NCBI GenBank assembly: GCA_015680905.1
Contig: CM027380.1
Coordinates: forward strand, 11,302,001 to 11,366,000
Direction: 5' to 3'
Source of the DNA: Coptis chinensis
Lineage: Eukaryota; Streptophyta; Magnoliopsida; Ranunculales; Ranunculaceae
Length of the DNA stretch: 64,000 nucleotides
Below the pieces are notes generated by a model. That model was not told the origin of the DNA, ran no database searches, and was given only the letters and a program-made list of their open reading frames with translations. Both the position numbers and the translations under genes were made by a program. This document shows positions 22,981 to 59,120 of the stretch, piece by piece (positions within the stretch are counted from its first letter, which is position 1; each line of letters starts with the position of its first letter).

Positions 22981-23450
22981 CAGTTCTCATGGAACGATCA
23001 ATGCCACCAAGCATTCGCGACTCTCAAAGAATACCTCACCACGCCTCCCGTCTTAGCCAAACCAATAGATGGAGAGACACTAGGGCTATATTTGGCAATA
23101 TCAGACTTCGCCATCAGCTCAGTTCTCTTCAAAGAGGAGAACAACTCAGAAAAGCCGATCTACTTTACAAGTAAGATGCTCACGCCAGCTGAAAGGAATT
23201 ATTCTTTCCTTAAAAGAGTCGTACTTGCTTTGTTGTATTCGACAAGAAAATTCAGGCCGTACTTTCAAGCACATCCGATCAAAGTACTGACCGACCTCCC
23301 TTTGAAGAAGATCCTCCACAAAGAAAACAAGACTACTCGTATGGCAGTATGGGCCGAAGAGCTCGGTGAACACCACATGGAGTTTGTACCTCGCACCTCT
23401 CAGAAAGGTCAAGTCGTCGCCGATTTCCTAGCAGATTTCCCTGTTAAGGA
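22981..23450 (+). pseudogene. pol: Tat element first RNase H (degenerate)
   Basis: FSWNDQCHQAFATLKEYL, then LYLAISDFAISSVLFKEE, PIYFTSKMLTPAERNY and FRPYFQAHPIKVLTDLPLKK follow the order of the ordinary Ty3 RNase H. The usual catalytic-site residues are changed (for example AISDFAIS where TDAS-like is usual, and FLKRVV where a glutamate is usual). An inactive first RNase H beside a second, intact-looking one is typical of Tat elements. Confidence 0.88.
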
Positions 23451-32080: not shown

Positions 32081-33104
32081 AAACACAATCATTTGATAAA
32101 TTACAACTAAGAACTTATAATTAAACAGGGTGTTTATGATCCTCCACAAGTACTATTTTTGTTTGATTATACATTGCTTTATTTAGAATACTTAGTATAA
32201 TGTATTAATTTTCGAAAATTTGCAAGAGTAGAGCACCCTTGTACAATGATATACATGGTTGCACATTTACCGTGCATTTGGACTCGTTATAATTGGTATA
32301 GATTGAAGAAAACATTTCAGTAAGTTTTTGCTTAGTTATTCTAATTCCAACCAATCGCAACAACCAACAAGAAGTAACCAAGATTTACTATCTGTTTGAG
32401 AACTCAGTACTCTGCCTTTGAGAGACTAGAGTTACACATTTAAAACTAGAGATTGAAACTGAAATTGCATGAGTCCCACTAACAAATAAGTTTTTGTAAC
32501 TTTCTGGGAGGGAGAAGATGAGTTTTCGCGGAATTAACACATTTGTTTTCGATTTGGTTACATTTAGTTACCAAATTAAAATATTTGACAGCTATTTTCC
32601 TTAACAAAGAAATAAAACGGTGTTAACCACACCTTAAATAATCTCATTCACAATGATAATCTAAAGAGATTGGGTGCGTCCACACAAGTTGCCTTGTGTT
32701 GGTACCCTCTTTGAATCTGGACTCATCGTAAAATATGAATTTCACACTAAGAATTAATATTTTGAAAAAATAAATAGGATGTTGATTTATTTGTTAGCTC
32801 AAGCCATAGTCTATCGAAAGAACATATACATTTTATTACAATTTTAAATTCAAAATGTAGACTAATTACAAAATTCTTTCTTTGCAATTCGTCATCTTTT
32901 TGAGACATACATCACGTAGTTTTAAAGGCTAGTCTATGATCATTACAACTAATTATTTCAAGAGAAAGGCTACTATAAACCTAACAAACATGATATATAA
33001 GTAGTCAATATGAGAAATGTAATGTCATACGAGGATAACTACAAGATGATAGCTCATTTACGCTAGTGTAGCAAGATTTATCAAACAAAGTTTGTTTAGC
33101 GCGG

Positions 33105-33275
33105 AGTTTATAGTGATCAACTCAATTGGTTGTGTATCCCTATTTTATGGAGAGGTTGCAAGTTTAAATCCCATCAAGTATTAGTTGAGATTTCTTTCTT
33201 GTGTAATTTATGTGATGTACCTTTGGGCCAGATAAGCCTTCATGCTAGAAATAGGGTGTTGTTACAATAGGTGGA
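33105..33275 (+). mobile_element. tRNA-derived SINE-like sequence (copy 1)
   Basis: TAGTGATCAACTCAATTGGT resembles a pol III A box and GGTTGCAAGTTTAAATCCC a B box (compare GGTTCGAATCC). They have about tRNA spacing and are followed by a non-tRNA tail (TGTGATGTACCTTTGGGCCA). Confidence 0.55.
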
Positions 33276-34214
33276 TCAAGGAGTGAAAACAAGTCTTCAT
33301 GGCCAAGGTAGAAACGGTTGGGTACACTAAAAAACTAGCGCATCAGCAAGAGCCTTCAGACTAGATTCTTTTCGGGGTTGATGAGCCATCGGAATATGGT
33401 CATTCAATGTAACATCTTCCTTAACCCTTTAAATATATATATTTTTTTTTAAAAAAGTTTTTCATCGGTGTTTTTACAAGTATACAAATAATGTAACAAT
33501 TGAGGGAAAAAAAACTTCCATTTGAACTCTGCCCCTTTGTTTTGAGTGATGAGGATTGGGAAATGGGTCCTTACTTTAGCTAGATATATCACAATTGGGC
33601 CGGGTAAGGCTTGATAGGAGTACATGACGGGGGCTTCGATGAGTCGGGGCTCAATCAGGCCATTAATTCAAGGCCAACTCAATAGGTCTCTACTCTCGTG
33701 TTTTGGGCTTCAGAATCTGGTTCTTTAATTTGGACACTGAGTTTTGAGCTGTTACTCAATTTGGACTCGAGTTGGGCTGATGCTCAGGCTAAAAAGTCTC
33801 CGAGGAGAAATGTGAGTTGTGCAAAAATTTTGGTAAACTATACAGACAAATATTAATTCAGATTTTGTGTTTAATCTCCCTGGTTCATACATACCCTGCA
33901 TAAAAACCCCCTCAATATGTACTAACCCATAAAAACCCCCTCTTTTTCTAAAATACCCAAACTGACTAAAATACCCCCCACACATAAAACCCTAGATCTC
34001 AAATTTCTTTTCTCTCTTTCTTCTTGCCGCATCCTCTCTTCTTGTAAACCATAGATATCCTGCAAAACCAAATTAACATAGAAGATAAGATGACAAAACA
34101 ACCGAAAAATAAGAGAGAAACACCCAACAAAACAAAAAAATCAAAAGTTTCCATGTCACAAACAAAATGGAAGAAAGCAATTACCGATAAAAAGACGAAA
34201 TCGAAAAGTAAAAA

Positions 34215-34320
<106 letters not shown>

Positions 34321-35254
34321 GTTTGTAAATAAACGAAATCTAAGGTGAAAATGCTTAATTTATTATATAAATATGCATTTATGATCCACAAGCATGGAAA
34401 AGGACTTTTGCTTAATTAGTCATTTGGACTCGTTATAATTGGTATAGATTGAAGAAAACATTTCATTAAGTTTTTGCTTAGTTGTTCTAATTCCAACCAA
34501 TCGCAACAACCAACAAGAAGTAACCAAGATTTACTATCTGTTTGAGAACTCAGTACTCTGCCTTTGAGAGACTAGAGCTAAACATTTAAAACTAGAGATT
34601 GAAACTGAAATTGCATGAGTCCCACTTACAAATAAGTTTTTGTAACTTTCTGGGAGGGAACAAGATGAGTTTTCGCAGAATTAACACGTTTGTTTTCGAT
34701 TTGGTTACATTTAGTTACCAAATTAAAATATTTGACAGCTATTTTCCGTAACAAAGAAATAAGACGGTGTTAATCACACCTTAAATAATCTCATTCACAA
34801 TGATAATCTAAAGAGATTGGGTGCGCCCACACAAGTTGCCTTGTGCTGGTACCCTCTTTGAATCCGGACTCATCGTAAAATATGAATTTCATACTAAGAA
34901 TTAATATTTTGAAAAAACAAATAGGATGCTGATTTATTTGTTAGTTCAAGCCATAGTCTATCGAAAGAACATATACATTTTATTACAATTTTAAATTCAA
35001 AATGTAGACTAATTACAAAATTCTTTCTTTGCAATTCGTCATCTCTTTGAGAGGTACATCACGTAGTTTTAAAGGTTAGTCTATGATTATTACAACTAAT
35101 TATTTCAAGAGAAAGGCTACCATAAACCTAACAAACATGATATATAAGTAGTCAATATGAGAAATGTAATGTCATACGAGGATAACTACAAGATGATAGC
35201 TCATTTACGGTAGTGTAGCAAGATTTATCAAACAAAGTTTGTTTAGTGCGGAGT

Positions 35255-35455
35255 TTAGAGTGATCAACTCAATTGGTTGTGTATACCTCTTTTATAGTGA
35301 TCAACTCAATTGGTTGTGTATCCCTCTTTTATGGAGAGGTTGCAAGTTTAAATCCCATCAAGTATTGGTTGAGATTTCTTCCTTGTGTAATTTATGTGAT
35401 GTACCTTTGGGCCAAATAAGCCTTCGTGCTAGAAATAGGGTGTTGTTACAATAGG
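35255..35455 (+). mobile_element. tRNA-derived SINE-like sequence (copy 2) with duplicated A-box segment
   Basis: Same sequence as 33105-33275, but the A-box part (TGATCAACTCAATTGGTTGT) occurs twice, 37 bp apart (35261 and 35298). Confidence 0.55.
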
Positions 35456-35614
35456 TGGATCAAGGAATGAAAACAAGTCTTCATGGCCAAGGTAGCTAGA
35501 AACGGTTGGGTCTACTAAAAAACTAGCGCATCAGCAAGAGCATTTGGACTAGATTTTTTTAGGGGTTGATGAGCCATTGGAATCGGGTCATTCAATGTAA
35601 CGTCTGCCTTAACC

Positions 35615-35616
<2 letters not shown>

Positions 35617-35689
<73 letters not shown>
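35617..35689. repeat. (TA)n microsatellite
   Basis: A pure TA run inside copy 2 at a site where copy 1 has only a short TA tract (about 33433-33442). Confidence 0.98.
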
Positions 35690-35692
<3 letters not shown>

Positions 35693-36924
35693 TTTCATCG
35701 GTGTTTTTACAAGTATACAAATAATGTAACAATTGAGGGAAAAAAACTTCCATTTGAACTCTGCCCCTCTGTTTTGAGTGATGAGAATTGGGAAGTGGAT
35801 TCTTACTTTAGCTAGATATATCACAATTGGGCCGGGTAAGGCCTGATAGGAGTACAGGACGGGGGCTTTGATGAGTCGAGGCTCAATCAGGCCATTAATT
35901 CAAGGCAAGCTTAATAGGTCTCTACTCTCGTGTTTTGGGCTTCAGAATTTGGTTTTCTAATTTGGACACTGAGTTTTGAGCTGTTACTCAATTTGGACTC
36001 GAGTTGGGTTGATGCTCAAGCTAAAAAGTCTCCGAGGAGAAATGTGAGTTGTGCAAAAATTTCGGTAAACTGTACAGACAAATATTAATTCAGATTTTGT
36101 GTTTAATCTCCCTGGTTCATACATACCCTACATAAAAACCCCCTCAATAAGTACTAACCCATAAAAACCCCCTCAATAAGTACTAACCCATAAAAACCCC
36201 CTCTTTTTCTAAAATATCCAAACTGACTAAAATACCCCCCACACATAAAACCCTAGATCTCAAATTTCTCTTCTCTCTTTCTTCTCGCTGCATCATCTCT
36301 TCTTGCAAACCCTAGATATCCTACAAAACCAAATTAATTAACAAAGAAGATAAGATAGCAAAACAACCGAAAAATAAGAAAGAAACACCCAACAAAACAA
36401 AAAAATCAAAAGTTTCCATGTCACAAACAAAAAGGAAGAAAGCAACTACCAATAAAAAAAGATGAAATCGAAGGTAAAAATCATATATATATATATATAC
36501 TAGAGTGCCACTCTTATAGTGACACTCTTATCTCACTCTTCATTTGAGCCGTCGGATCTCGCCCTCAAGATCTGAAGATCTCATTTACTGATATGACCGA
36601 TATTTCAAAATTTCAGTGTATTTCAAAATAAAAAAAAATGAAAATAACAAAATAAACCGAAATTGGGTTCTCTCTCTCTACAGCTCTAGGCTTCTTCTTC
36701 TCATCATTTGGCAATTCGGTTTCTTCATTTGGCTTCTTCTTCTCTGACAGGTATCATTTGGCAATTCAACTATAGTGCACTTTTGGTTATGGTGCTTGCC
36801 TATTGGAACGTTTTAATTGACACTTGGATTGTCATTATACCATAAAAACTTGAATTTTGATTTAATTTAGGTTGCTATGATTATAGTTATGATTGATACC
36901 CTCATTTAAAGACGGCGACAATTC

Positions 36925-38935
36925 AGGTGAACTCTTTCAGAGTTCGGTGAACTCTGTCGTATTCTTCATTCCGATTCTCGTCGAGTTTTGAACTCGTCGT
37001 GGAGTTCGTGAACTCTATCAGAGTTTTGAACTCTTTCCGAGTTCGGTGAACTCTGTCGTATTCTTCATGCCGTATTCTGTCAGAGTTTTGAACTCTTTCA
37101 GAGTTCGGTGAACTATGTCATATTCTTCATGCCGTATTCTGTCAGAGTTTTGAATTTTGTCAGAGTTCGTTGAAGTAGCATATTCGGTAAACTCGCCGAG
37201 TTTTTGAACTCTGTCGATGATTCGCCGAGTTTTGAACTCTTTCGAGTTCGTGAACTCTGTCGTATTCTTCATGCCGATTATGTCGAGTTTTGAACTCGTC
37301 GAGTTTGAACTCCATGGGAGTGAACTCCATTAGAGTTTTGAACTCTGAAGTTCGGTGAAGTAGCATATTCGGTGAACTCAATGTCGAGTTTTCTTCTGCC
37401 CGAGTTTTGAACTCTGTAGTTATTCTTCAGTTTTGCCGCCGATTCTCATCAAAGTTTTGAACTTTGTCGAGTTCGTGAACTCTGTCGAGTTTTAAATTCT
37501 GTCGAGTTCGGTGAAGTTTTCGGTCGTTATTCTTCATGCCGTCGATTACGTTAGAGTTTTGAACTCGCCGAGTTCGGTGAACTCTATCGAGTTTTGAACT
37601 CTTCGAGTTCACCGCGAAGCATATTCGTGAACTCATCGCGATTCTTCATGCCGTGATCTCATCGAGTTTTGAATAGAAGTTTTGAACTCTTTCGAGTTCG
37701 GTGAACTCTGTCGAGTTTTGAACTCTCTTTCGAGTTCGTGAACTCGGTCGTATTCTTCATGCTTCATGATACATCTCCAAAGTTTTGAACTCTGAAGAGT
37801 TCACCGAACTCTATCGAATTTTGAACTCGCCAAAGTTTATTGAAGTAGCATATTCGGATTGAACTTTGAACTCGTCGAGTTCACCAAAATAGTATATTCG
37901 GTGAACTCTGCCGCCGAGTTTTGAACTCGTCGTATTCTTCATTCCGAGTTTTGAACTCGCGTCGAGTTCGGTAAACTTTGTCGAGTTTTAAATTTCGCCG
38001 AAGTTCGATGAACTCGTCGTATTCTTCATGCGTGATTCGTCCGAGTTTTGAACTCGTCGAAGTTTGAACTCTATCGAGTTTTGAACTCTTTCGAGTTCGT
38101 GAAGTAGCATATTCGGTGAACTTCTGTCGAGTTCACCGGCAGCATATTCGTGAAACTCGCCGAAGTTTTGAACTCATGCCCGATTCTTCAACTCGACTCT
38201 CGCCGAGTTCGGTGAACTCTATCGAGTTTTGAACTCTTTTCGAGTTCGGTGAACTCATTCGTATTCTTCATGCCGTCGATTGAACTCCGAGTTTTGAACT
38301 CTTTTCGAAGTGATGGTGAGTTTTGAACTCTGTCGTATTCTTCATTCTTCATGCCGTGATGAGTTTTGAACTGTCAGAGTTTTGAACTCATTCGAGTTCG
38401 TTGAAGTAGCATATTCGGGTGAACTCGTCGGAGTTTTGAACTCTTTCGGGGAGTTAGGTGAAGTTCGTGAACTCGAGTTTTGAACTCGTCGAGTTCGTAT
38501 TCTTCATGCCGTATTTTGAATCGAGTAAAGTTGAAGTAGCATATTCGGTGAACTCGCCGAGTTTTGAACTCGTCGATTCTTCATGTCGTGATTCTCGTCG
38601 AGTTTTGAACTCGTTAGAATTCATGCCGTGAACTCTATCGAGTTTTGAACTCTATCGAGTTCGGTGAAGTAGCATATTCGGTGAACTCGCCGAGTTTTGA
38701 ACTCTGTTAGAGTTCGAGTTTTGAACTCTATCGAAGTTTTGAACTCTCGTCGAGTTCGTGAACTAGCATATTCGGTGAACTTTGTCGAGTTTTGAACTCT
38801 ATCGAGTTTTGAACTGAACGTGAACGAGCATATTCGTGAACTAGCATATTTCGGTGAACTCTGTCGAGTTTTGAACTCGATGCGAGTTTCGGTGAAGTAG
38901 CATATTTGGTTAACTCTGTCAGAGTTTTGATGTTT
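36925..38935. repeat. Left GAGTTTTGAACTC subterminal array
   Basis: About 2 kb of irregularly repeated GAGTTTTGAACTC (itself nearly palindromic), GAGTTCGGTGAACTC, GTAGCATATTCGGTGAA and CGTATTCTTCATGCCG. The order of modules varies, so it is a mosaic rather than a simple satellite. ORFs read in it are artefacts of the repeat. Confidence 0.95.
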
Positions 38936-39016
38936 AAGTTATTTACATTGTTTATGTACATTGGGATTTTTGACTGTTTAAGTTATTTATATTTTTAATT
39001 TTTTTGATTTATAGAA

Positions 39017-41340
39017 ATGGAGACAGAGACATCAATCAATATCGAAGAAGACGTAGTTGGGTCTTCGTCTACTAAAGCCCCTGTTCAAGGCACGCAAACA
39101 TTAGCTGCTCCTTATATAGGAATGACTTTTACAAGTGTTGATGAGGCAAATACTTATTACAAAGAGTATGGTCAACAAGAGGGATTTGAGACTTCGTGTT
39201 CTGGACGACTTCCAAGCAACAAAAAATCAGGTGGATTTGGTTAGTGGTTGTTTTACCGGGTTTGCTCACGTGAAGGGGTTAACAAGAGAGATGAAGTCCG
39301 ATCAAGAAATACATCAACTATCCGGTGTGGTTGCCAAGCTAGAATTTATATTAAGAAAAGAATGCATGAAGAGATATATGAGGTCAGCGTTGCTCATAAT
39401 GACCATAGTCACGGTCTGGTGACCCCATCGAAGAGAATTTGCATGAAAACTAACAAACATATGCCCGGAAGCGGCGGGTGCTTGACCGAGATATTTAGTG
39501 ATAGCGGTTTATCCGTTGGGAAAGTGGCATCTGTTTTCCATGGAGAGGAAGTTGGGTTTACACGGAAAGATTGTTGGAACCATTATTATGGTTTGACCGT
39601 AAAGATGCCTAAAGAAGGTGATGCAACTGCCGTGCTGCAATATTTTATGCAGAAGAGTGCTGAGGATCCCCGGTTCTATTACGCTATTGATTTAGATGAA
39701 AATGGGACTGCGGTGAACTTTTTCTGGGTTCATGGGAGGTCTCGATGCCAGTATGAATATTTCGGGGATGTTGTGTCTTTTGATACCACATATCGTATCA
39801 ATGCATATTCCATGCCTTTTGCCCCTTTTAATGGAGTCAACCATCATTATCAGTCGATTCAGTTTGGTTGCGCATTGTTGCTTGATGAGACAGAAGATAC
39901 ATTCATATGGCTATTTAAGGCCTGGCTTGCAGCCATGGGTGGTCGTGCGCCAACTGCAATCATCACTGACCAGGATAGAGCGATGACAGCAGCCATTGCC
40001 AAAGTGTTTCCTAATACTTGTCATCGTTACTGTCTTTGGCATATTATGTAGAAATTCTAAGAGAAGATGTCATTTACCAAATTTGAGACATTGGTAACCG
40101 AAGTTGAAGAACACTATTTCTTTTTCAGATAGGATTGTTGATTTTGAGAGAAGATGGTGTACAATCATTGAGAAGTATGAGTTGTCCGAAAATCCTTGGT
40201 TGATGAGAGATATATTCAACGCGGGAGAAATGGGTTCCTTGTTATTTCGGTGGCACCTTTTTTGTCGGTATGCACACGATCGGGTCGAAGTGAATCGATG
40301 AATGCTCATTATGACTAGTTTGTCAATTCGGACGACTCACGCTTTATGCAGTTTGTACATGGTAATGAGAAGTCTTTGGCTTTGCTTGCTAGGAAAGAAA
40401 GAGATTCGATTACCGCGACCGAGCATAGTTCACGGATTGTGCCTAACGATGCTTTCATCCTTATGCATGCCTTGAAAGGTCTATAATGATCTCAATATTC
40501 AATAAATTTAAAGAGCAACTAGAAAAGGCAAAGATGGAGTACAAAATTGATGGGGAACAAATTGACGGTATGGAACCGAAGCTACATGGTGAAATGGAGA
40601 GACCCATTTGAAGAATTTCGTTTGGAGAGTGAGTTTCGATAGAGGAACCTTAGAGGGAGATCATGAATGCAAGTACTTTCAGTTTATGGGTTTGCTTTGT
40701 GGTCATATCTTAAAGGTTTTATGCGCCACGAGATTGAAGAGATTCCAAACCATTTTAGATTGACGCGGTGGATGCAAAAGTCTAACACTTATATAGAGCG
40801 GAGTTTGATAATTGGATTTGTGGTGGGAATGTCTCAAATGAACCTTTGAGAGTGGCTCATTCTATCAAGGTTGCTTCTCAAGTGGCTTTACGCGTCGCGA
40901 TACTTTTGAGGGTTATTCATATTTTATTGAAAAGATTGGTGAAATGGCTATTGAAATTTCAAAGTTTAATGAGACTTCCTACAAAGGAGACGCAGAAGTT
41001 GCAGAGCCTCCAGTTGTAGAGCCTTCGATACCTTCGGTTAATACATCACAGGTTTTTTTAATTTGAATGTTTAATTTGATATAAATTTAGTGTTTAATTC
41101 GGTGTTTAATTTGATATAAATATTTATTTTAATTCGGTCTTTATTTCAGCTATTGATTTTGAATCCCAACATTTCTCAAACAAAATGGAGGGGGAAGAAG
41201 AAAGCGGATAGATGGAAATCCCCCAAAGAGATAACCCTAAACAATTCAGGAAGAAAGTGTCACAGATGTGGATAGATTTCTAACCATGACTCGAGAAATT
41301 GTCCAAAGAAAAATAATAATAAAACTGGTCGATTGTAAGT
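39017..41340 (+). pseudogene. FAR1/FRS-type MULE transposase pseudogene
   Basis: Opens METETSINIEEDVVGSSST; FAR1 DNA-binding domain with PYIGMTFTSVDEANTYYKEY and STIRCGCQARIYIKK (about 39105-39420); MULE transposase domain with VVSFDTTYRINAY (first D, about 39773), AIITDQDRAM (second D, about 39958) and CHRYCLWHIM (about 40020); then RIVDFERRWCTIIEKYELSE (about 40122-40180). A SWIM finger remnant CKYFQFMGLLCGHILKVL lies at about 40660-40715, and a CHRCG...CPKK knuckle at about 41255-41310. TAG stops at 39242 and 40049 and several later frameshifts break it. FAR1/FRS proteins descend from such transposases; the position between inverted ends argues for a transposon copy rather than a host FRS gene. 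Confidence 0.85.
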
Positions 41341-42369
41341 ATAGCTTTATTCAAAACTCTTTGATTCTAAATGTTCACTAGTTCTAATGATATTTTATCC
41401 GAAAGCGTCATGGACTTCATTGATGTCCGGACTTGTTAAGAGTGGTTTAGATATGGCAGCCTTGTTAGAGTTTTATCAAGTGTTGTTAAGTTGAACTGCG
41501 GTCGAGGGTTGTGTTCCATTGCATCATTATGTCCATTGGATAGTATCTAATGTTGTCCGCTAGCTAGGCTCTAGATAGGAAACATCATAATGATAGACCG
41601 GTGCTTTTTTGATAACTTCTTTCTCCTTTTTATTTTCAAAGTTCAATATTCTTTGGTTTAGGTTACATTTGGGGAGTTTAATTAGACCGAAGTTCTAATC
41701 TCATTGATGTTGTAGAATAGAGAAGTATGGCTCAAGGAGAAATGGAGAATCTGGAGGCAAAGCTTTGCTTTAGGTAAAAAATCGCGCCTACTCATCTATT
41801 CGTTCCAGCCCTCGACTTTGCATCGGTCGATCTTGATCTTTTCATCATTCTCTGCGGTTATGTTTCGACCGCTTCTGAGTTCCACAAGATGCCACGGTAT
41901 CACCGCCACCTTGACTATGCACCATTGAAGAAAAGGCCAAAATTGAGTTATTAGCTACAACGGAGAAATTGTCGTGAAAAATGAGAGAAGAAGCGTAGTG
42001 TTGAAAGAAGGTGGAGAAGTTGAAGAGATTTGAAACTTGGAGTGAAAGGCTTGAACAAACCAAAGCTAGGTGTGGGCAGGCTATACTTGTTGCTAATTCA
42101 TTCTGATGTGCTTAAATGTTGTAATACGAACAATAATATTTGGGATTGCATAAAGCATTTTGATGTGCTTATTATAAATGTTACTGTTGTTACACCAAGC
42201 GGGCCCACTTGCAATTTTGTTCCGTAAGTTGATATGATGTATTGATGCAGATACTATACCACCAGTATAATGCCAACATTTGTCAACAACAAATTTACCT
42301 CAACTCATATGATCATCAATCAACATCAACACAAACAAACCAAACTGATAAATTGCCAAAACATCAACA
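41341..42369. other. No recognised feature
   Basis: Moderately AT-rich DNA after the transposase remnant; short ORFs without known motifs. Confidence 0.45.
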
Positions 42370-42394
42370 TCAACAATATGGACTTAGTACGGCC

Positions 42395-42965
42395 ATATCG
42401 TTTGGATTTGAATTTGGATAAAAAAAATGGCGTGTCTGTTTGGACTAAGTCCAAACGGTGTGGCCATGCCGTTTGGGACAAAGTCCAAACAGACGCCATT
42501 TTTTTTGCAAATTCAAAGTCCAAACGGCATGGCCACACCGTTTGGCCTTAGTCTCAAACGGTGTGACCATGCCGTTTGGACTTTGAACTTGCAAAAAATG
42601 GCGTGTTTGTTTGGACTTTAGTCTCAAAGCGGCAAAGTCCCACACCATTTTTTTTGCAAGTTTAGTACCAAAGCGGTATGGCCATGCCGCGTTGGGACTA
42701 AGTCCAAACGGCATGGCCACACCGTTTGGCCTTAAAGTACCAAAGCGGTATGGCCATGCCGTTGGGGACTAAAGTCCAACGGGCATGTGGCCATACCGTT
42801 GGCCTTAGTTCCAAACGGCATAGCCGCATCGCTTGAGACAAACGGCAAGGCCAAACGGTTTGGCCATGCCGCATTGGACTTTGAACTTGCAAAAAAATGG
42901 CGCGGTCTGTTTGGACTTTGTCCCAAACGGGTCCAAACGGTGTGACCACAACGTTCAAGAGGCAA
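42395..42965. repeat. Palindromic CCGTTTGG/CCAAACGG array
   Basis: Units of GGTGTGGCCATGCCGTTTGG and inverted CCAAACGGCATGGCCACACC alternate with TTTGGACTAAGTCCAAA-type palindromes and a CGCCATTTTTTTTGCAA module. More than ten copies in both orientations allow long hairpins. The ORFs across it are repeat artefacts. Confidence 0.93.
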
Positions 42966-43549
42966 AAAAATAGATCTTTTGTGTTTTGGCAAAAACATTG
43001 CGCATTTGCATTAGATTTTTGTGTTTTGGTAAATAACATTGGGATTTTTGTTTTGTGTTCGCATTAGAGATAGAGATAACATTGGGACATTAGAGATAAC
43101 ATTGGGACAATGTTACGCATTAGATTATTAATAGAGATACTTCGATGTGACAAATTAAAATCATAAATTGTCCGGAGAGCACAAGAAGAGCCATTGAATG
43201 GATATAAACCGAGATCTAAGCAAAAGCACATACGCCTGACCACTGGTAAGTAGTATAACTGTTTACTCCACTGACAGCAGACGTCCTATTAAAATCAATG
43301 CCTGCTAATAGCAGAAACATAACCAAAGGCAATGTGACATGAAATACATGAAACCCTAGGATCTTAGGTGAACATGAAAAGAATGACAAGTCCAAAGCAA
43401 GATCACTATCATTTCATATTTCAACAATATGACACCATGTGAAATACATTGTGCAATTATCGAAAATAAAGCTAAGTTGCTACATATCAACAACTTGCAC
43501 TTACAAAAGAGTCCTAACATAACATTTTTTGACTACAAAGAGATTTCCA
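42966..43549. other. No recognised feature
   Basis: A small duplicated GAGATAACATTGGGACA unit lies at about 43070-43110; otherwise nothing recognised. Confidence 0.45.
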
Positions 43550-46500
43550 ATCTAACTTTCTGACTTTATCTCCTTCCTGCAAAACAAAAAAATTGAATAA
43601 ACAGATCAGTCAAGCAAAGTTAAATCAAACTGCTTTATTAAGGTCTGACAGAAAAACTAACCTCTCCACTTGCTTCATCATGTTCACCATCTTCCACCAC
43701 CACCATTTGCCTAATTACCCCCCAATAAAAACACATGAATCAGTATAAATACTACCACATATGTCAAATCCAACACCAAATCTAGAAACCTCATTGATTG
43801 GAAAACTCTTGAACTTAAGTCATGATCAACTCTCAAAAGAACAAAGAAAGACAAATGCCAATAAACACTCCCCGCATCATCTCAACTAACACAAACGGAA
43901 AAGTAAAGCAAAACCCCAGATCATCTCAAATGCCAATAAACACTCCCCGCGATCATCTCAACTAACACAAACTGAAAAGTAAAGCAAAACCAAAGATCAT
44001 CTCAAATGCCAATAAACACTCCCCCGCATCATCTCAACTAACACAAACAAACCATTTCCATTTCCAACACTCGTCCCCAACACAAGATAAAAGGAGGTAA
44101 ACTAACCAAACTAACCACTAAACCCTAAACTAACCAAACTCAACATACCTAAATCCTATGCTCCTTCATGATATCGTCCGCCAATGAACTTGCACCGGGT
44201 CAAATTGTATGCCTCCATGAACTCGTTTCAGGCATCCTCGAATCGCAGCCCCACCCAATTGCAGGCCTTGATTGAAAAGAGAAATTTCATCAACGACGGG
44301 TCTTTGTCAAAATTAAAACACAAAACTATATTAGTATATACATTTACATTTATAAAATACCAAAACAAAACAAAACAAAAATTAACGTTGTAAGATATTA
44401 ACTCACCAGATTATGATATGGAAAACTCTGTAGGGAGTAGTGACTAAGATGATCAGGGTTTATCATTCGAATATGACTATTGTTTTCGTACCAACTCATG
44501 TATCTACTAACACATTCCCATGGATAAGACGGAATGGGTCCTCGTTGTTCAAGTTGAATCAAGTGATTCTGCCAATTACTCCAGTAGGAAGACGTAATAT
44601 TAAATTTCAAATCATACCCGCGTCCGGAAGTAGTTCGCATCGAGGTCATTGGTTTTGGGGGATCTGAGGGTACAAACTGCATATAACCCAACTGACGCAC
44701 AACCCTCGCAACATTGTACTGCTCGACATTATCAAGAAAGCATATAAATCCCTCGAAAAATGTTATTTCATCCACCGGCCGTGTAGCTCGAACTTCAACA
44801 TAGGGATACCATTCAACCTGTCAAATAGCATATGATCGAGGAAATTAATCATTAATCACATACTAATAATATTAATTAATAAATAAAACTATTTACATAC
44901 AAAAATGCTTACATCGGTACAAGTCATATTATCAATGGTGGCTCGGGTATACTTCAATGCATTTGTTGTTGTGCTAGCATAAAAGATCGAGATGGCGAAA
45001 GTACCTATTAGCCGCGGGACATGCTCAAATGATAGTCCCTCATTTGGGTATGGCTTTCGAACATGGGAAATACTCATAAATCCATGCCTACATTAATATA
45101 GACACCGAAGTTAATATTGTAATAGATAGATAAAATTGACATTGAAAAAAAACAAAAACTAATACCGTAGGAGAGTGAAATAGCCCGAAACACCCTTCAC
45201 CTTGGCACTTGTGGCAATCCCAAGACCTTCGCACAAGTAAGCCGAAGGCCGCACCCCACGCGCGAAGTCTCTCGATCTCCGGCAAATTTCAAAAGCGGTC
45301 TCGGATAACAAACGGAACTGCAGTTCAGGGCGCGGTCGGAAGAAGGCGGTACATCCAAAGAAAAATAACGGATAAGCTCTCACAAAGAACTGCGCACCTC
45401 TTTTTGGGTTGACGCCTTCTTCACAACAACCCCATTTTCATCACGTAAATCTTCATCTCTTACCTTCCTAGCAAACTGCTTCATCAAGAAATCCATCCTA
45501 ACTTTGGAAGTGAACTTATTGGATTTCATCTCCGCATCTATCTTATCCATGGGTATGCCAAGATTTTTGTGGAGGAGTCTTTTTGTCTGTTCCAAGGTCA
45601 AATCAGTGTCCCCGATCCTTCGCTTTGCCTCGATCGGAACTCCTAAGAGTTGGGAAACATCGCCCAACGCGGATTGTCATCTCGCCCATGGCATATGAAG
45701 CGTGTTGGTCTCTGGATGCCACCTCTCCACAAACGCAGAGACCAACACAGGGATCCTGATGCCTGTATACACCTAAGACCAGAGCACATAAGTCGGTCCT
45801 TTGAAGCTCCACGTGAAAAGTAGAACATCCTGAACACTCTCCTCGATATCCCATTGTACCAACTTGTTTAGGTGCCCATGACACTTCAACACCCGCTCCG
45901 CCCCTAAAACAACAAAACTTAGTATTAATGTATGCACAAGTTTCAGAATACAAAATTTAAATACTAATAGACACTATATGATAATATTACCTGCCCTCCC
46001 AAACATCGCGAGCCACGTGCATTGCATAGTCATACAACAGATGTGACACACAATGGCCACCTCCATAAACACCTCTCTTGAACTCCAAGTCATTGTTAGA
46101 CTTTCTCACAATATTCACTGGAGGTACAGGTACATGGACTTCCTCGTCATCCTCCTCCTCCTCCGTGTCCTCCGCGTCCTCTTCCTCCTCGTCAGTCTTC
46201 CTCTTCTGCATCATCAACACCCTCTTCTTCACTATCAGCATGACTTAGAACTACACTCTTCCCATGATCCATATTTACGTCATCGTCATCTACATCTACA
46301 TCTACATCTAAAATCTACATCTACATCTACATCTACATTTCATCTACATCAATTTAACTATCCCCTTTCTTCTTTTTGATTTCCTAACTCTACACCACTT
46401 ACAACATTCTTTGGGATCATCCGCTTCCGATCCCCTACTTAACTGATGCGAAGTGGTTGTTCTCCTTCCCTCTTTTTTCTCAGGCTCCTCATCAGCGACC

Positions 46501-46590
46501 CAACTACTACTCCCCACCTAACAACTTCTTAGCACCGCGGAAAACACTTTTTGCTGCATTCTTCACATTCACATTCTTTGTTCGAGGCAT
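43550..46590 (-). pseudogene. Plant mobile domain (PMD, aminotransferase-like) gene, broken
   Basis: From the ATG at 46590: MPRTKNVNVKNAAKSVFRG, a frameshift, an acidic region (TDEEEEDAEDTEEEEDDEE, about 46195-46140), then LVSAFVERWHPETNTLHMPW and GDVSQLLGVPIEAKRR (about 45750-45600), which is the core of the plant mobile domain. Further pieces are FEGFICFLDNVEQYNVARVV and YWSNWQNHLIQ (44775-44400). Two 3' exon-like blocks (about 43710-43664 and 43577-43550) join as ...EASGE|EGDKVRKLD with GT/AG borders. Stops and frameshifts occur throughout. PMD genes are often carried by transposons and include the MAIN/MAIL regulators; this copy sits inside the large MULE-like region, oriented opposite to its transposase. 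Confidence 0.72.
43853..44051. repeat. 75-bp tandem repeat, about 2.7 copies
   Basis: AAATGCCAATAAACACTCCC occurs at 43853, 43928 and 44003, each followed by ATCATCTCAACTAACACAAA. It lies within intronic sequence of the PMD pseudogene. Confidence 0.9.
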
Positions 46591-46809
46591 TGCTACAAAA
46601 TAAATAGGAGTTAAAAATAAGACATTCAACTAATTCAAATTGTTGCAATACCAATGTGAAAAAACAAAGAACGAAATAAAGTGTGCATGCCAATCTATAT
46701 CTAAGGTGTGCATGCTATCTAGGCAAACTATACTCTATTAAATCCCCCTCCACACACTAACAAAAAAACCCAATCTAATTCAAGCATGCGAACCCAATCT
46801 CATTATTCA

Positions 46810-48715
46810 ATTTCTCTTTGGATTATTCTACTATGAAGATTTTTATTTCATGGAACCCCGAAGCTAGCAGCCTACATTTGTCGGGGGCCTGCGATAATCT
46901 TTATGAGCTTATCAAAAGCACTAAGTGGGCATTTCTAATTTCATTTTTCTTTTATTTCATGATAAGTATTTTCATAGCAATCATGTCCGCACCTAGCGAC
47001 AAAACTATCAGATTGGGAACCCGGCGGAATATTTGTTTTCGTTTTTATTCATTTATGGCTTTTTTGGGCTTGTACTTTTTCAAAGATAGCCTACCCGGAG
47101 GAAAGCAACCCTTAGTACCGCTTATTTTTCAGTGATCTTTTCTTATTTCTAGGCCATTTACCCGAGCTTGCTTGGCTTTCAAAGTGGATTGAAGGGATAG
47201 ACCTTCTTTACGTTAATCTTAGGTGTTTTTGTTTAGTTGAGGAGGACTATAATGCAAAATGATCGAAAGGACTGGGCTGGAAAGGGAGGAGAAAACAATT
47301 CAAATGGATAGCATGCGAAAATGATCTACTATTATTATAAGAGGGGTAAGCCCTCTTTCTTAAGTTATAGCATCGTTCGAATGGACGAACGACAAGAGCT
47401 TGATTCCAACTCACTTACGTTTTAGGATATGTCGGCAAGTCCAATACAAACAAAAAGAAAGAAGTTGAACCCAAAGACCACCAGCGTTTGCATTTCATCT
47501 CAGTAAAGATGAAATAAGCATTTACCTTTTTGCTTTGGCAAAGACTACTCATTTCGCGGTAGACTTTTCTAGCTTTATTGCTGGCTCTAAGCCTACCACT
47601 TTGAAAACCTAACCTTCGTTCGATAGAGCTAACCCCTTTGATATGAAAGTTTTCCAACCCACCCGAGAGAGGAGAGCTAGGAACCTAAGGAAATAAATTG
47701 AATTTGCTCTACATCATCCGGAACTAAATAAGCTTTGGGGTCTTAATTTCAATTCTAATCCGCATATAGAATTAGAACCGAGCTATCCCATGATCGTGAT
47801 TTGATCATCATTATAGGGCGGAGAAACCACGCCTTTTATGATGAAAGGGGAGCATTATGTCCGATCAATACACCACCGTGCTCTAATTCTAATAAAGGGT
47901 GCTATGGAAGAAATTAGGGCGAATCGAGGTTTAGCGGTGCTTATCACTTTCAGACGCCGGACTCGTCGGGTTTATCGGAAGATTTTCTGAAAAGCTTAGT
48001 GCAAGTGTCGACTACACGAGCATTCCCTTACTCGGCAGAGCTTTCTCAAGAAAAAGGAAATAACTACTGACGGATAATCTTCATTCGGACTACACGATCT
48101 TTTTCACCAAGAGCTTGTTCGAAATGGGGCGCATGGGGAAGTACTTTGGAATGATTTGATTGGGACGCTTAGTGAGTTAATGAGCACTCGTTTGCACGGT
48201 TCCATCAACGCTTTTCTTGCGTGTTAGAATCGAATTCATAATCTATAAAGCTATAAAGAAGAGATGCCCCGTAGAAGACTCCAGGCCACCTAAGCTAACA
48301 AAAGGCTAAGGATACCCTTTTAGTTGTTTGTTCTTATGCCGACTAAAGCTAGCTGCGCCACAGCTTGAATCTCCCTAGAAATCCCCACTCGTAGCCCTTG
48401 ACTTGGGTGTGTTAAGCATATTACTGGTTTCTTACCAAAGCCTTGGTTGGCTCAACTTTTTCTCTATCTCTAATGGCTAGACCAAAATCCCCACTTAAGC
48501 CTGCCTAGAATCTTGCTTCTGGGCTGCCCCTCTAGAGAAGTCGCTTTAAACCCCATCCCCCCTATAAGAGGTCGAATTGCTTGTACAACTAACCCGCTAC
48601 CTCTCTAAGAAATCTGAGTACTTAACATTTTCGATCCCATATCGAGGAGGTGAGCCAAAATGAGCCATCAATACAAGATAGAATATATAGGACTCCCCTT
48701 TTTTTTTTTAGCCAT
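46810..48715. other. Probable mitochondrial-derived DNA (NUMT)
   Basis: The base composition and texture change sharply at about 46.8 kb and back at about 48.7 kb: evenly mixed bases with blocks such as GAAAGGGAGGAGAAAAC and CTTGACTTGGGTGTGTTAAG, in the style of plant mitochondrial non-coding DNA. The plus ORF 46818-47135 has a hydrophobic stretch (AFLISFFFYFMISIFIAIM) that I cannot name. This is an impression from texture only; no mitochondrial gene was recognised. Confidence 0.4.
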
Positions 48716-48739
48716 CCGCCAACCGGATCAATCCACTTT

Positions 48740-49080
48740 AGCTCAAAAACTCGATAGAGTTCACGAATAGAGTTCACCGAATATGCTACTTTCACGAACT
48801 CGACAGAGTTCAAAACTCTGACGTAAATTTAGAACTCGATGAATTTAAAACTCGAATTCACGAACTCGAATTTAGAACTCTGACAGAATTCAAAACTCTG
48901 ACAGAATTTAAAACTCTGACAGAGTTCACCGAACTCTGACAGAATTCAAAACTCTGACAGAGTTCAAAACTCTCACATAATTTAAAACTCTGACAGAGTT
49001 CACCGAATATGCTAGTTCACCGAACTCGACAGTAATTTAAAACTCGACAGAAGTTCACGAACTCTGACAAAGCATGAAGA
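48740..49080. repeat. Right subterminal array, inverted relative to 36925-38935
   Basis: CTCGACAGAGTTCAAAACTC, GAGTTCACCGAATATGCTA and GAGTTCACCGAACTC are reverse complements of the left-array modules. Confidence 0.93.
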
Positions 49081-49586
49081 ATAATGCATGAGTTCAAGCT
49101 AATTAAATAACATTCAAACTTAATTAAATAATATTCAAACTTCAACGAAAATACCATTAAAGCTAATTAAATTTGCAAAATTATTACATGTACCCAATTT
49201 GAATAAAGGTTACCCAATTCGAATAAATTCACTACACAGAAGGTTACCCAATTTGAATAAAGTTCATACACGCGGTTGTCTAATGTTTTCTTCAAATACA
49301 GAAACTTGTTTACTTCCAAGTTTCTTGTTCCAAACAACAATATAAACAATTTCATACCCAATAAACGGTTGAACCAAGCGTTTTAAACTTGTTTACTTGT
49401 TACAGTATTCACCCAATTTCGCGTTTTAAACAATTGCCAAGAATAAAGTTTACTAGGTTCAACCGTTTAAACAACATCCAACGATATACCCAATTTGTTG
49501 TTTACTAATTAAACAACAAATCAAACGAATTAAATGTTCAAAAATACCTTAATCCAGAAGCTTGGTTCAAATTGGAGAAGAAGAAG

Positions 49587-49588
<2 letters not shown>

Positions 49589-49652
<64 letters not shown>
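49589..49652. repeat. (GA)n microsatellite within the right TIR
   Basis: About 32 GA units; the left TIR has only CTCTCTCTCT at 36669-36678, so the run has expanded on the right. Confidence 0.97.
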
Positions 49653-49654
<2 letters not shown>

Positions 49655-49857
49655 CCAACCCAATTTCGTGTTTTTGGTATTTTCTTTTTTTTTTTATTTT
49701 GAAATAAACCAAAATTTTATATAAACCAAAATTTTCGGACGGACGGTGAGGAGAAGAGTGAGATATATATAATATATATATAGTGACACTCTTATCTTTT
49801 CTTTTTCGATCTCGCCCTCTAGATCCCAAGATCTATATATATAAACCAAAAAATTTT

Positions 49858-49860
<3 letters not shown>

Positions 49861-49951
<91 letters not shown>
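49861..49951. repeat. (TA)n microsatellite
   Basis: An uninterrupted TA run of about 90 bp. Confidence 0.98.
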
Positions 49952-49952
<1 letters not shown>

Positions 49953-50101
49953 TTTTATATATGAAAATCATATTTTATATAATAAATTAAGCATTTTCAC
50001 CTTAGATTTCGTTTATTTATATATTATTAGTAAATAAACGAAATTTAAGGTGAAAATGCTTAATTTATTATATAAATATGCATTTTCATATATAAAAGTA
50101 C
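49952..50101. repeat. ~150-bp near-perfect palindrome
   Basis: ACTTTTATATATGAAAAT and TAAATTAAGCATTTTCACCT on the left mirror AGGTGAAAATGCTTAATTTA and ATTTTCATATATAAAAGT on the right, centred near 50027. One arm is also present at 34318-34375. Confidence 0.92.
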
Positions 50102-50107
50102 AATTAC

Positions 50108-50143
<36 letters not shown>

Positions 50144-50245
50144 ATGAATTAGTAAATTACATATATAGCTTCATATGTAAATTTGTATTTAAGCATATTC
50201 TAAATGTGAATTCGTATTTTCACAAGTGAATTTGTATTTATATAT

Positions 50246-53183
50246 TTGAAATTTGTATTGCAACAGGATGTAAAATCTACTGGTTCTTACAAGGTATTCC
50301 GTTATTCTGCTTTGCTAATGCTAAAACTTGTACAAGATTTGAAGGGAAGAATTAGGGATATTCATATCACCAAGATGAAAGAAACTCCTTTTGGTCATCT
50401 TTTTATGGTTTTTGTCGATGAAAAGGTCGATAATAGAATGTTAGAGAAACCAAGCCACATCATTATAAAGTTGTTAACCAGTTGGTGCAAGGAAAGGCAT
50501 AAGCTTAAGATATGAAATAAGTTTGTGTCTTTATGTCCATCTAATATGGATGTAACCTTTGGGCTTCCGATGATGGGGAAAGTTGTTGTTTTCCAGTCAG
50601 GAACGAGAATAGATGAAGCTATTTCTGGATCACCATTCCTGTTAAGACGTTTCTCCGGAGTTAACAAGATAACAACAACGGTTGTAAAAGAAATCTTGAA
50701 CCAGATTGTAGACTCAACGGACCTTACGGATATTGAAGATGTGGTGAGACTACTCGTCATTTTTCTGGTGATGATAGTATTTGTAAGTAGTGGTGCGAGT
50801 GGAATAGCTTGGTCCTTCCCAAAGCATGTTGAGACTTTGGAAGCTATGTGGAGTGTGTCATGGGCTACCTCAGTTCACTCAGAACTGATTGAAAATTTTC
50901 AGAAGTGGGATAGCAATAGTCCATTCAAAATTTCAGGATGCATTATTCAGCTTTAGGTAAGATACTTACATTGTCTACAAATTCATATTTTCATATGTAA
51001 GTTTAGTTTGTTTTTTGACATATGCGTAGTCATATTTTCATAGCATATAACACCTCACATGATAAGAGAGAATATATATTTGCATATGTATATGTCAGAT
51101 GTCATATGTTGGTAATATACTAACATTATATTGTCTGCATTTTAGTATTTTCATATGTAATTTTGTTTTTACATATGCATAGTCATATTTTCATAGTCTA
51201 TATCACCTGTCTGGTGTATGAAAACATATATATGAAAATAGAAATTTACATATGAAAATCTATATATGCATATGAAAATTGAAATTTACATATCCATTGC
51301 AGATGTCATATGTCATATGTTGGAAAAAGAATTCTATTAAAATGTTGCTAATACAAATTCACATGTTATGTGCAGTACTTTTTGTGTGAGCATGTAATAC
51401 TTTGTGAGCCAGTCTGCGAGACTTGCTTCCCACGGATTGCAAAGTGGTCGATGGAACGACTAGCGGATGAAGTACCAAAAACTTTCAAGCTAGAAAATGT
51501 TCCCAATTGCCACATCAAAGTAAGATTGGAATTGACCGAGGAAGAGAAAGAGGCATTATACCCTAAACACCACCAAAGTGAAGCTGAAAGCTTGAGGAAG
51601 GAAAATGCTTAGTTGAAGAGGGAGAATGAAGAGTTGAGGAAACTTAATAAAGATTTAAGGGGTGAAGTTGGTAGACTGACGAGAATAGTTTGTGAAGAGA
51701 GTCTAGAAGATATGTTTGAAAATCATGAACATATATAGCAAGTTCTATGGGGAGGAAAACATAAGAAATATAGATTCTATTGAAGGAGGAGGAGATGTCG
51801 GTTTGGTTGAAGGGGGATGAGATGTAGATATGGTTGAAGGAGGAGGAGATGTAGATATGGTTGAAGGGGTAGGTAGAGAACAGAGATGTGGATTTGGTTG
51901 AAAAGGAAAGCAAAAGAGAGCCCGAGTTGTCCGAGAAAGAGTTGGATGAAAAGGAAGACATTGGAGAGACTGAGTTGTCTGAGAAAAAGTTGGCTGAGAA
52001 AGAGACATGTGAAGATGAGTAGAAAGGTGAGGCAGAGGCAGATGAAAAGGAAGAATCCGAGTTGGATGGAGAAGAGAAAAGCAGAGAGACAAAGTCAGAT
52101 GAAGATGAGGAGGAAAAAGGTGATGGAAAACCTAACTCGATATTTAAGAAAGTTAAGGAAAGGGAGTGGATGAAGAAAACATCAACAATATATGAGTTCG
52201 GAAATATTAAGAAGCAAACAAGGAATACTAAAGTTGCTGAAATTGAATTGAATGATGAACCGGTGATTGATGCAAATGATTTCGAGACTCCACCACCACG
52301 CGTAGGAAAGCCTATGTCAAGACCACATTCAACCAAGATGAGGAGTCTACTTAATAAAGAGAAGTTACCGTTGGTGGAAAGTTTTTTCAGAAAAGCAAAC
52401 CAGAAGTAAAATTTACTTTTCATAAATATATATAATTTTTTCTTATCGTCTATGTAATTGCACAAATTGTTTTGATCGTGTATGCATATTGCAGTACAAT
52501 TACGTGGATGGACATTCAAATACAGTTGAAAATACAGGGGGAACACGTGAACCACCTGATGTTGAACTTCTTCGTCAGTGATAAGGTAAATCTTTTTATT
52601 ACTCAAATCTTTTAAAATTAAAAAAACTTGCAATTTAGTAATTTTTTGTACTGTTTATGGTAAATCATTGATTGGTACGTGCACTTCTAACTCCCCAAGG
52701 AAGTGGAAAAGCTAATTGGATCTTCTCTACCAAAGTGTCTCCATTTCTCATCATTTGCATGGGTAAACATCTTCTATGTAATTTAATTACTAAAGTTGAA
52801 TATGTAAATTCAACTAAATATGCAAACAAGGCATGAAGATGTTGTTGTTCTTATTTGTTATAGTTGGCTTTAAGAGATAACCAGAAACAAGGCATGAAAG
52901 TCTATGTCACAGATCGATGTCCTAAAACAGTTGGACAACAAGGTTGCTCATCTATTTTTTTTATCATAAATAGTCCCAAGTTAAGAAAATACAAAAATGG
53001 TTATCACTGGACTTTGCTTCATGTTAATACTTTGAATTGAGAATGGACGCACTATAACTCTTTAAGGCCAAGGAACTACAAGAAGAAGAAATACATTTCG
53101 TTAGAAGATGCTAAAATGTTGGTAAGTGAAATTTTATTTTAAGTTACTATGTAAATTTAAGTTTACATAGGTCAGTTACTATG

Positions 53184-58500: not shown

Positions 58501-59120
58501 ACATATGTGTTTTGCTTCCATTGTCTTTATTTCAAAGAACTTCAGCATCTTATACTTCTTGGATGCGTGAACTCTCCATAGACACCCAGTTTCAATCTTC
58601 AAATAACACTCAGCCGTGACTCTATCAGGATCATTCTTCTTAATAAGAACTTTGTAATGATTAATAAGACAATGGCGTAAAAGCTTAACATGAAAATTGG
58701 TAGCACCACCAGAAAATCTCTGTCCCACACCAATCAAAATAGGCAAAGAAGCGACATTAGCATATTTTTCATTATATGTAGCAGAAGAACTAGAAGTACA
58801 AGAAGAAGCCTGAAGAGAGACTTTGGAACTAGAACCAGCATCACACAAAGCAAAAAAATCCTCTTGACGATGTTGTTATAAAAAATGTATCAAAACTTTT
58901 AACCAAATTGAAGCAAACAAGGGATTGAAGCTCTGAGTCAGTATCTATCACAATACGCTTTGAATCCCTTACAAAAGATAGTTCTATAGACAATAGAGTA
59001 AGGTCTGGCCACTTTTCAAAAATCATACACTTTAAATCAGCAATCATATCGTTAGTCCCAACACGGATACTCATAATTTACGTCTCGTACATAATAGCAA
59101 AAAGAGCAGTCCCATCCATG
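55507..59120 (-). pseudogene. mudrA: mudrA-like MULE transposase (KI type), split by an LTR insertion
   Basis: From ATG 59120: MDGTALFAIMYE, then SIRVGTNDMIADLKC (a PB1-like N-terminus, about 59074-58870); MuDR N-terminal domain with RVTAECYLKIETGCLWRVHA (about 58620-58560) and KSIVLDMVRDKPLIKPGEI; MULE core with CLFGWNF and DGTFVKTK (about 58135-58100), an intron ending at 57842, IFPVAMAVVLSETDDNWDWF, FISDRNHGLLMGV (about 57715) and HHGYCLWHLK; SWIM finger CSCNWWRIE...FSCAQAL (about 57130-57075); and LPPDLKKKMGRPDKKWK. The last residues (NKGPCYGHRNPRVGSTPTTY, ending SAPVQ and TGA) lie at 55605-55507 beyond the inserted LTR. Stops at several points make it inactive. It faces the Ulp1-like gene, the arrangement seen in KI (Kaonashi) MULEs. 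Confidence 0.85.
55606..56782 (+). mobile_element. Solo-LTR-like insertion
   Basis: Starts TGATAGGGTTATATAC and ends TTTTCTATCCA (inverted start TGGATAG), with a TATAAATAA box at 56532-56540 in the proper place for an LTR promoter. No primer binding site or internal coding sequence adjoins it. It interrupts the last exon of the mudrA-like gene. I found no matching 5-bp target duplication, so bounds may be off by a few bases or an end may have decayed. By texture it resembles Ty1/copia LTRs. Confidence 0.6.

Follow-up and report, generated by a model that had tools for sequence, protein, structure and literature searches.

The survey of Mutator-like elements (MULEs) by Dupeyron et al. 2019 (PMC6446971) places the plant mobile domain (PMD), often in antisense, in MuDR-type plant groups, and gives the FAR1/Jittery plant sub-group, in the portion of the survey accessible to us, one open reading frame (ORF) and no PMD; a plant sub-group of the Hop group (35) has FAR1 in half of its members, with no PMD listed in the same portion. 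According to the available text of Ikeda et al. 2017 (PMC5418596), PMD was captured twice by MULEs, and an anti-silencing use of it is proposed there. Here, we analyse a 64,000-nucleotide stretch of the Coptis chinensis genome (the window; positions 11302001-11366000 of contig CM027380.1, C4 below, of assembly GCA_015680905.1), whose gene content (PMD, FAR1-type MULE, intron-bearing genes) is of the plant nuclear genome type. Coordinates below are those of the window, and copies were sought in the 935.6-Mb, 116-contig assembly. With high confidence, we interpret the 13.3-kb segment at about 36502-49792 as a single decayed copy belonging to a high-copy family of Mutator-like transposons, which sits in TA microsatellites and has a two-gene convergent layout. 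Visible in the segment are inverted ends, inverted hairpin arrays inside them, a convergent transposase and PMD gene, a foldback where the genes meet and a cargo slot in the right arm, the transposase reading inward from the left end and the PMD gene inward from the right end. Each of these ingredients has a precedent; their combination was not found in the open-access literature searched, and neither was any FAR1-type MULE with a PMD (Repbase and most subscription journals lie outside this coverage). The features of the segment and of its insertion site are the following:

34218..34377, no strand: unoccupied site, (CA)n(TA)n followed by GTAAATAAACGAAAT, from the comparison of the duplicated flanks
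36502..36700, + strand: left terminal inverted repeat (TIR), from alignment, shuffles and other copies
36700..36927, + strand: left inner region, putative 5' untranslated region (UTR) exon with predicted splice donor GACAG/GTATC
36928..38930, + strand: left subterminal array of hairpin units GAGTTTTGAACTC, GAGTTCGGTGAACTC, TATTCTTCATGCCG and AGCATATTCGG, from repeats and inverted-repeat content
39017..41336, + strand: FAR1-MULE transposase pseudogene, from profile matches and reading frames
41337..42389, + strand: region 3' of the transposase, kept in 10/10 copies at 92-95%
42390..42935, no strand: giant intergenic foldback between the convergent genes, from folding and 11/11 copies
42936..44139, no strand: spacer, with tandem repeats of 76 bp at 43852-44048, retained in copies
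44140..46600, - strand: multi-exon PMD pseudogene, from profile match and frames
46601..46792, - strand: sequence upstream of the PMD gene, common to both right-arm types, from copy comparison
46793..48735, no strand: type-B cargo block, initially a candidate for mitochondrial DNA, from type comparison (type-A copies hold an unrelated 3.1-4.1 kb instead)
48736..49085, - strand: right subterminal array, of opposite orientation to the left array (hairpin units at about 48745-49082), from repeats and alignment
49086..49588, - strand: right inner region, from two other type-B copies
49589-49652: GA tract adjoining the right TIR
49653..49792, - strand: right TIR, from alignment and other copies
49782..49862, + strand (direct orientation): additional fragment of an end of this family, abutting the right end

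Among the closest described systems is the Jittery/FAR1 group (group 36 in PMC6446971), with which the element shares an N-terminal FAR1 domain, a MULE core and TIRs of tens to hundreds of bp, and possibly a SWIM-like and CCHC-like C end. That group, compared here by domain content, is described in the accessible portion of the survey with a single ORF and no PMD, whereas the present element has a second, convergent gene (PMD) together with large hairpin arrays and a foldback. Since this second convergent gene was found in 10/10 other copies selected by their ends (below), the element is at most a variant of the group and not a typical member. The MUDR, MUDRAVI2, MDR and MULE-Monocots groups (47-50) of the same survey resemble it in that most of them have a PMD, sometimes to mostly in antisense, but their plant entries, as far as the available portion goes, carry SWIM, CCHC or C2H2 fingers and no FAR1; the element has FAR1 and no DBD_Tnp_Mut match. 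MuTAnT/AutoMuTAnT of Medicago (PMC4486113) shares a Jittery-like transposase, long foldback TIRs and insertion into (TA)n, but AutoMuTAnT is 4.9 kb long with a single ORF, and no PMD, arrays or cargo are described in the sections at hand. The SaTar/AgS-MULE elements of guayule and rice (PMC5907723) are targeted to microsatellites and stacked end to end, comparable to the end fragment at 49782-49862, but those described in the accessible text are mostly non-autonomous and from hundreds of bp to about 2 kb long, with one autonomous element of 5.3 kb.

Large size is shared with the 16-kb FHY3/FAR1 mobile element at the kochia EPSPS locus (PMC6808082), also of FAR1 type and with four predicted genes; the other three are, by its main text, a ubiquitin-like gene, one of the endonuclease/exonuclease/phosphatase superfamily and one with no known domain, and the term "mobile domain" is absent from that main text. 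Among animal foldback-type MULEs, Muta1 (PMC5225508) and Tm1 (PMC3169594) have composite TIRs with subterminal tandem repeats, Muta1 also a palindromic terminal motif, but these are 12-15 bp repeats in short TIRs and not hairpin arrays of 0.8-2 kb, and no PMD is described in the parts of the two papers available. Finally, the PMD-C genes captured by MULEs (PMC5418596) are likewise PMDs carried by MULEs; in the accessible text, they are PMD-transposase fusion proteins in grasses and Amborella, in contrast to the separate convergent gene found here. No relatives of the transposase or the PMD were detected in viral contigs.

Comparison of the two ends (36500-36680 against 49653-49800, GA tract excluded) gave 115 identical positions in 130 aligned columns, with 44 gap columns, and an alignment score of 119.2; none of 300 dinucleotide shuffles (0/300) scored as well, their maximum being 64.2. 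Inverted terminal repeats are present in other copies too. This confirmed the matching inverted ends proposed in the initial annotation, which had bounded the element at 36524..49775: the element is real, and its true ends lie slightly outside those limits, at 36502 and 49792. In most other copies, the left TIR starts with CGGTTTGTCTAGAGTGCCACTC, following TA repeats, and the window copy is without these first bases. Inside the TIRs, the inner regions 36700-36927 and 49085-49588 showed no significant similarity to each other (12/300 shuffles as good). The left one is kept at 95.6-99.6% in the nine of ten copies that cover it nearly fully; the right one was found only in two other copies with an intact right arm, both of the type defined below as B, with best pieces at 96.2% and 98.4%.

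The search with the left end returned 49 match rows (best 40 of 540 first-look candidates scored), from which the ten best matches other than the window were taken, on six contigs, and fetched with 17 kb each (the end-selected copies). In all ten, the transposase, its downstream region, the foldback, the spacer and the PMD gene follow one another with unchanged order and orientation; genes and spacer are about 88-95% identical, and the PMD gene of the copy at C8 60.90 Mb is cut at 71% of its length. The left array lies between the end and the transposase in nine of them; the tenth, at C9 28.93 Mb, has the entire set in inverted orientation with respect to the matched end and has lost the array beside the transposase. 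For a second sample, the eleven best transposase matches outside the window were taken, less C9:4182041; none of these ten is among the end-selected copies, and 1.8 kb at the expected PMD distance was compared in each. The PMD was found there in seven of the ten, and in one more this piece reached only the spacer and the PMD edge. First-look candidates numbered 740 for the transposase and 850 for the PMD, which are not confirmed matches; the best 40 of each were scored and matched at 94-100% and 95-100%, respectively. The family probably comprises hundreds of copies. The idea of a one-off composite element was, in consequence, abandoned: other copies with the same ends and arrays exist and share the module order in every end-selected case, FAR1 and PMD co-occur repeatedly in both samples, and independent contexts for FAR1, PMD and arrays, which the initial annotation had named as the sign of a chance assembly, were not what the copies looked at revealed. 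Unlike left flanks, where these are not pure TA, argue against the copies being segmental duplications of one locus.

Both genes of the window copy are recognisable and damaged. In the transposase, a FAR1 domain at the N end (PF03101, 41.4 bits, cut-off 28.1) and a MULE domain (PF10551, 104.7 bits, cut-off 27.6) both exceed their cut-offs, and the FAR1-type transposase first proposed is thereby upheld. A SWIM match reached 11.8 bits, below its cut-off of 19.6, and a CCHC-like motif (CHRCG...HDSRNC) at the C end was spotted by eye only. At least five frame changes and six in-frame stops were counted by eye. For DBD_Tnp_Mut, no match was reported for this transposase, the only one in the window being in another MULE at 58.3-58.9 kb, and Pfam comparison of two pieces of the region 41337..42389 gave no match. 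The PMD gene, correctly predicted to be oppositely oriented, lies on the minus strand, with the transposase on the plus strand. Its joined pieces score 107.7 bits over positions 19-347 of the 347-position profile, the best single frame scoring 32.4 bits, just below the cut-off of 34.9, and about seven frame changes were counted by eye. Its ATG, at about 46591, directly follows a TTTTGTAG acceptor.

The sequence in which the two genes meet (42390-42935) folds at -197.3 kcal/mol (z -20.8) into one long nested foldback. The initial annotation had described a palindromic array here, for which a single nested fold is the better description. A measure based on short hairpins gave 10.6% against a shuffle maximum of 11.4%, and the region stands out only as a long fold. 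The foldback is present in 11/11 copies, at lengths of 546-1187 bp as cut, each folding below all 8 of its shuffles, and that of the window is the shortest of the eleven as cut and has the smallest folding energy. Comparison with known RNA families gave no more than sub-threshold microRNA look-alikes and one sRNA; these lie in the foldback, the right array and a hairpin at 49.9-50.2 kb.

The subterminal arrays are a second recurrent structure. The unit GAGTTTTGAACTC occurs 27 times on the plus strand at 36928-38930 and twice on the minus strand in the right array, with no further occurrence in the window; aligned in inverted orientation, the two arrays match (E 1.5e-28 among the matches listed), in agreement with the inverted arrays inside the ends that had been noted at first. 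Short inverted repeats cover 27.5% of the left array and 23.1% of the right one, against means of 3.8% and 4.5% in 20 shuffles, an enrichment of about 7x and 5x, respectively. In all ten left arrays measured (the window and nine copies), 25-45% of the bases lie in short inverted repeats, with shuffle maxima below 10% (20 shuffles each). The length of the left array ranges from about 0.8 to 2.0 kb among copies, and the best array pieces align between copies at only 68-85%, against about 88-95% for the genes; the hairpin character of the arrays is kept while their sequence turns over fast. The motif CACGCGC, which we take to be a FAR1-binding motif, is absent from the arrays and occurs once in the whole element, at 45257.

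The insertion site could be read from a duplication in the left flank. There, 32275-34217 and 34421-36483 align over 1956 bases with 12 gaps and 4.55% substitutions, a tandem duplication (32275-36483) of about 2.1 kb, the first duplicate of which keeps the unoccupied site of the element. In this first duplicate, the flank runs through (CA)n(TA)n directly into GTAAATAAACGAAAT, and in the second one GTAAATAAACGAAAT lies past the right end of the element, at about 50030-50085; thus, the first duplicate represents the unoccupied site, and the element lies in a TA microsatellite. The argument is weaker on the right side, where the duplicates share only about 55 bases and are unlike each other over about 165 bases of TA repeat and hairpin arm. 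The same setting is found elsewhere: in 9/10 other copies, the left end has at least eight consecutive TA within 60 bp, and most other copies' ends likewise adjoin TA repeats. A second long hairpin (49905-50145; arms of 115 nt, 82% complementary) lies directly to the right of the element, with one arm only in the unoccupied duplicate.

Several observations weigh against this interpretation of the segment as a member of a mobile two-gene family. Within the 17 kb fetched, the right end was found in the expected orientation in only 6/10 end-selected copies, and 2/10 transposase-selected copies gave no PMD match at the expected distance. All eleven copies, the window included, are broken, with no transposase frame longer than 287 codons and none with an unbroken second PMD exon (about 240 codons), although assembly errors could add to the frame changes. 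Variants shared by at least two copies (first 75-residue transposase piece left out, columns missing in at least two copies not counted) fell on codon positions 1, 2 and 3 in numbers of 39/46/43 for the PMD (p 0.74), so no purifying selection was detected, and of 30/31/45 for the transposase (p 0.14), a non-significant third-position excess. The separate trees of transposase and PMD differ, being in part poorly supported, and exchange between copies is therefore possible. No target duplication of 8-11 bp is readable, because both ends abut TA repeats. The terminal branches (about 3-6%) exceed the per-lineage divergence of the duplicated flank (about 2.3%, half of 4.55%), an excess that sits uneasily with insertion after the flank duplication unless the element mutates faster.

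The tree of the joined transposase and PMD sequences combines long terminal branches with short internal ones, the shape that a burst would be expected to give, and the distances of the two genes among the eleven copies correlate (Mantel r 0.40, p 0.044). Indel events shared by several copies numbered 89 in the transposase and 118 in the PMD, with 124 and 108 private ones; shared indels would fit the copying of already broken members by protein made elsewhere, with alignment noise or assembly error as the alternative.

A working scheme can be proposed, each step of which we would place between rather doubtful and slightly better than even. Transposase supplied by intact family members would use its FAR1 and zinc-finger parts to bind the repeats of ends and arrays, and would cut the ends, and the element would be re-inserted in (TA)n; broken copies would have been moved by protein made elsewhere, or would have broken since moving. 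In both genes, the array is probably contained in a long 5' UTR intron, which splicing would remove from the mRNA; this placement is based on a donor-like string close to the left end and on an acceptor that precedes each ATG by 2-3 bases. The AG preceding the transposase ATG is conserved in 9/9 other copies checked, the donor-like string near the left TIR in 7/9, and TTTTGTAG before the PMD ATG in 10/11 copies, the eleventh being truncated there; by a crude T-richness score, these acceptors rank best of 127 candidates in the left interval and tied third of 199 in the right one. As DNA, the arrays may act as multi-site, hairpin-forming binding platforms. The foldback could serve as a bidirectional transcript terminator and, on read-through transcription, could give hairpin RNA from which small RNA is made. 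The PMD protein, comparable in its place to mudrB (named in the accessible portion of PMC6446971), would be a mudrB-like accessory, most likely acting on chromatin or silencing.

For the PMD gene, a passenger role is nearly as likely as that of an accessory protein. It may be a transduplicated host gene that hitch-hiked, dead, through one burst without any role for the element, a possibility to which we give serious weight, if somewhat short of even. The codon-position test, with no third-position excess in the PMD among copies, the breakage of every copy examined and the shape of the tree all go in this direction; capture of host sequence by MULEs is moreover known, as the available text of PMC5418596 reports. 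Against it, the start and acceptor are conserved in 10/11 copies, the window copy retains the full length of the profile, the position of the gene mirrors that of the transposase, and antisense PMDs recur in other MULE groups in the accessible portion of PMC6446971.

The right arm differs among copies by what fills the slot upstream of the PMD gene. Type B, with the 1.9-kb block, comprises the window and the copies at C4 47.59 Mb and C1 76.92 Mb, and the split copy at C8 60.90 Mb, in which the block with the PMD 5' end lies about 14 kb further on, appears to belong to it. A type-A subtype of 3.1 kb is found at C3 37.31, C4 26.49 and C7 79.40 Mb, at C3 106.69 Mb as far as matching goes (2.6 kb) and at C9 28.93 Mb with an insertion, and one of 4.1 kb at C3 35.33 and C1 36.84 Mb; at three type-A right ends, 84 bp of the left end recur with 96-100% identity. 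The type-B block gave 42 match rows at about 40 places (best 40 of 78 candidates scored). Flanks were fetched at ten of these, five with the full block and five of a later-starting kind, a 5:5 split that was chosen and is not an estimate; all five of the latter are without 46725-47143. At 10/10 sampled places, the 5' end of the PMD gene lies on one side of the block and an array on the other, which makes the block a module of the element and not a stray insertion. Pfam comparison of five type-A cargo ORFs gave one BED zinc finger and nothing else. This BED reading frame is identical in the 4.1-kb (type-A2) cargo of the copies at C3 35.33 and C1 36.84 Mb, and is perhaps a captured hAT fragment. 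The type-A1 cargo of the copy at C7 79.40 Mb contains a 148-aa frame without a Pfam match, organelle-like by eye.

The initial annotation had suspected mitochondrial DNA in this part of the element. The block itself is real, and a single nuclear insertion of mitochondrial DNA was rejected, given its presence at about 40 places and the same flanks in all ten sampled; what could not be shown is a mitochondrial origin of what is a repeated module. That the block at 46793-48735 is captured mitochondrial DNA amplified with the element is conceivable, though we lean against it. It has for it the look of the sequence and the impression of the earlier reader only, together with the lack of relation between the block and the type-A right arm. 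No support came from the RNA-family, tRNA, Pfam and PDB comparisons tried: no tRNA was detected in the window, and the Pfam and PDB comparisons gave no mitochondrial protein for the block. Neither a search of a plasmid collection nor a scan of viral contigs with a 44-base stretch of the block gave a match, little plant DNA being expected in either. The CpG content of the block is not distinct from that of the genes of the element, and the assembly shows no full COX1, with only 3 short pieces, and so offers nothing with which to compare the block.

The composition of the right arm is also relevant to the idea that the element arose by fusion, at the foldback, of a FAR1 MULE, now the left half, with a PMD-bearing MuDR-type MULE, now the right half, since mobilised as one, an origin that we consider unlikely, though not negligible. 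Both the right arm and the inner right end exist in more than one type, and PMD is typical of MuDR-type groups in the available part of PMC6446971; however, all ten other copies share the join, and the 84 bp of left end recur at the three type-A right ends, so that any fusion predates the spread of the family. Less probable still is a wider scenario in which a MULE of the FAR1/Jittery lineage would have independently acquired a PMD at the convergent place typical of MuDR, self-complementary arrays in both 5' introns and a giant hairpin at the meeting point of the genes, with PMD and hairpin forming a system of silencing escape or tuning, and with a cargo bay upstream of the PMD that took up and amplified organelle DNA. 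Lastly, a chance pile-up of a FAR1 MULE, a PMD gene, satellite arrays and organelle DNA by independent insertions, to which the crowding of the window with transposon-like frames, a second MULE at 57.4-58.9 kb included, and the two transposase-selected copies without a PMD might point, was rejected as next to impossible on the co-occurrence seen in both samples (identical order and orientation in the ten end-selected copies, which lie on six contigs, and a PMD where expected in seven of ten transposase-selected ones).

Other transposon-like sequences surround the element. The second MULE, at 57439-58875 on the minus strand, is a different one of MuDR type, with a MULE domain (46.8 bits) and a DBD_Tnp_Mut domain (40.7 bits) in separate frames. 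Just outside the element, a gene fragment at 50516-50953 on the plus strand gave a weak PMD-like match (E 0.012, 15.3 bits). Long frames at 19534-25216 and 62376-63998 on the plus strand are Ty3/gypsy- and Ty1/copia-like by eye, and those at 7635-10132 on the minus strand are hAT-transposase-like, also by eye.

PMD genes ride MULEs repeatedly. The two-gene family described here provides an independent case for comparison, in which the PMD gene, separate from the transposase and convergent with it, accompanies a transposase of the FAR1 type, and not of the MuDR type. Insertion into a TA microsatellite is directly visible at the unoccupied paralogous site. The hairpin arrays and intergenic foldback of the family offer a concrete and testable link between element structure, splicing and small RNA.

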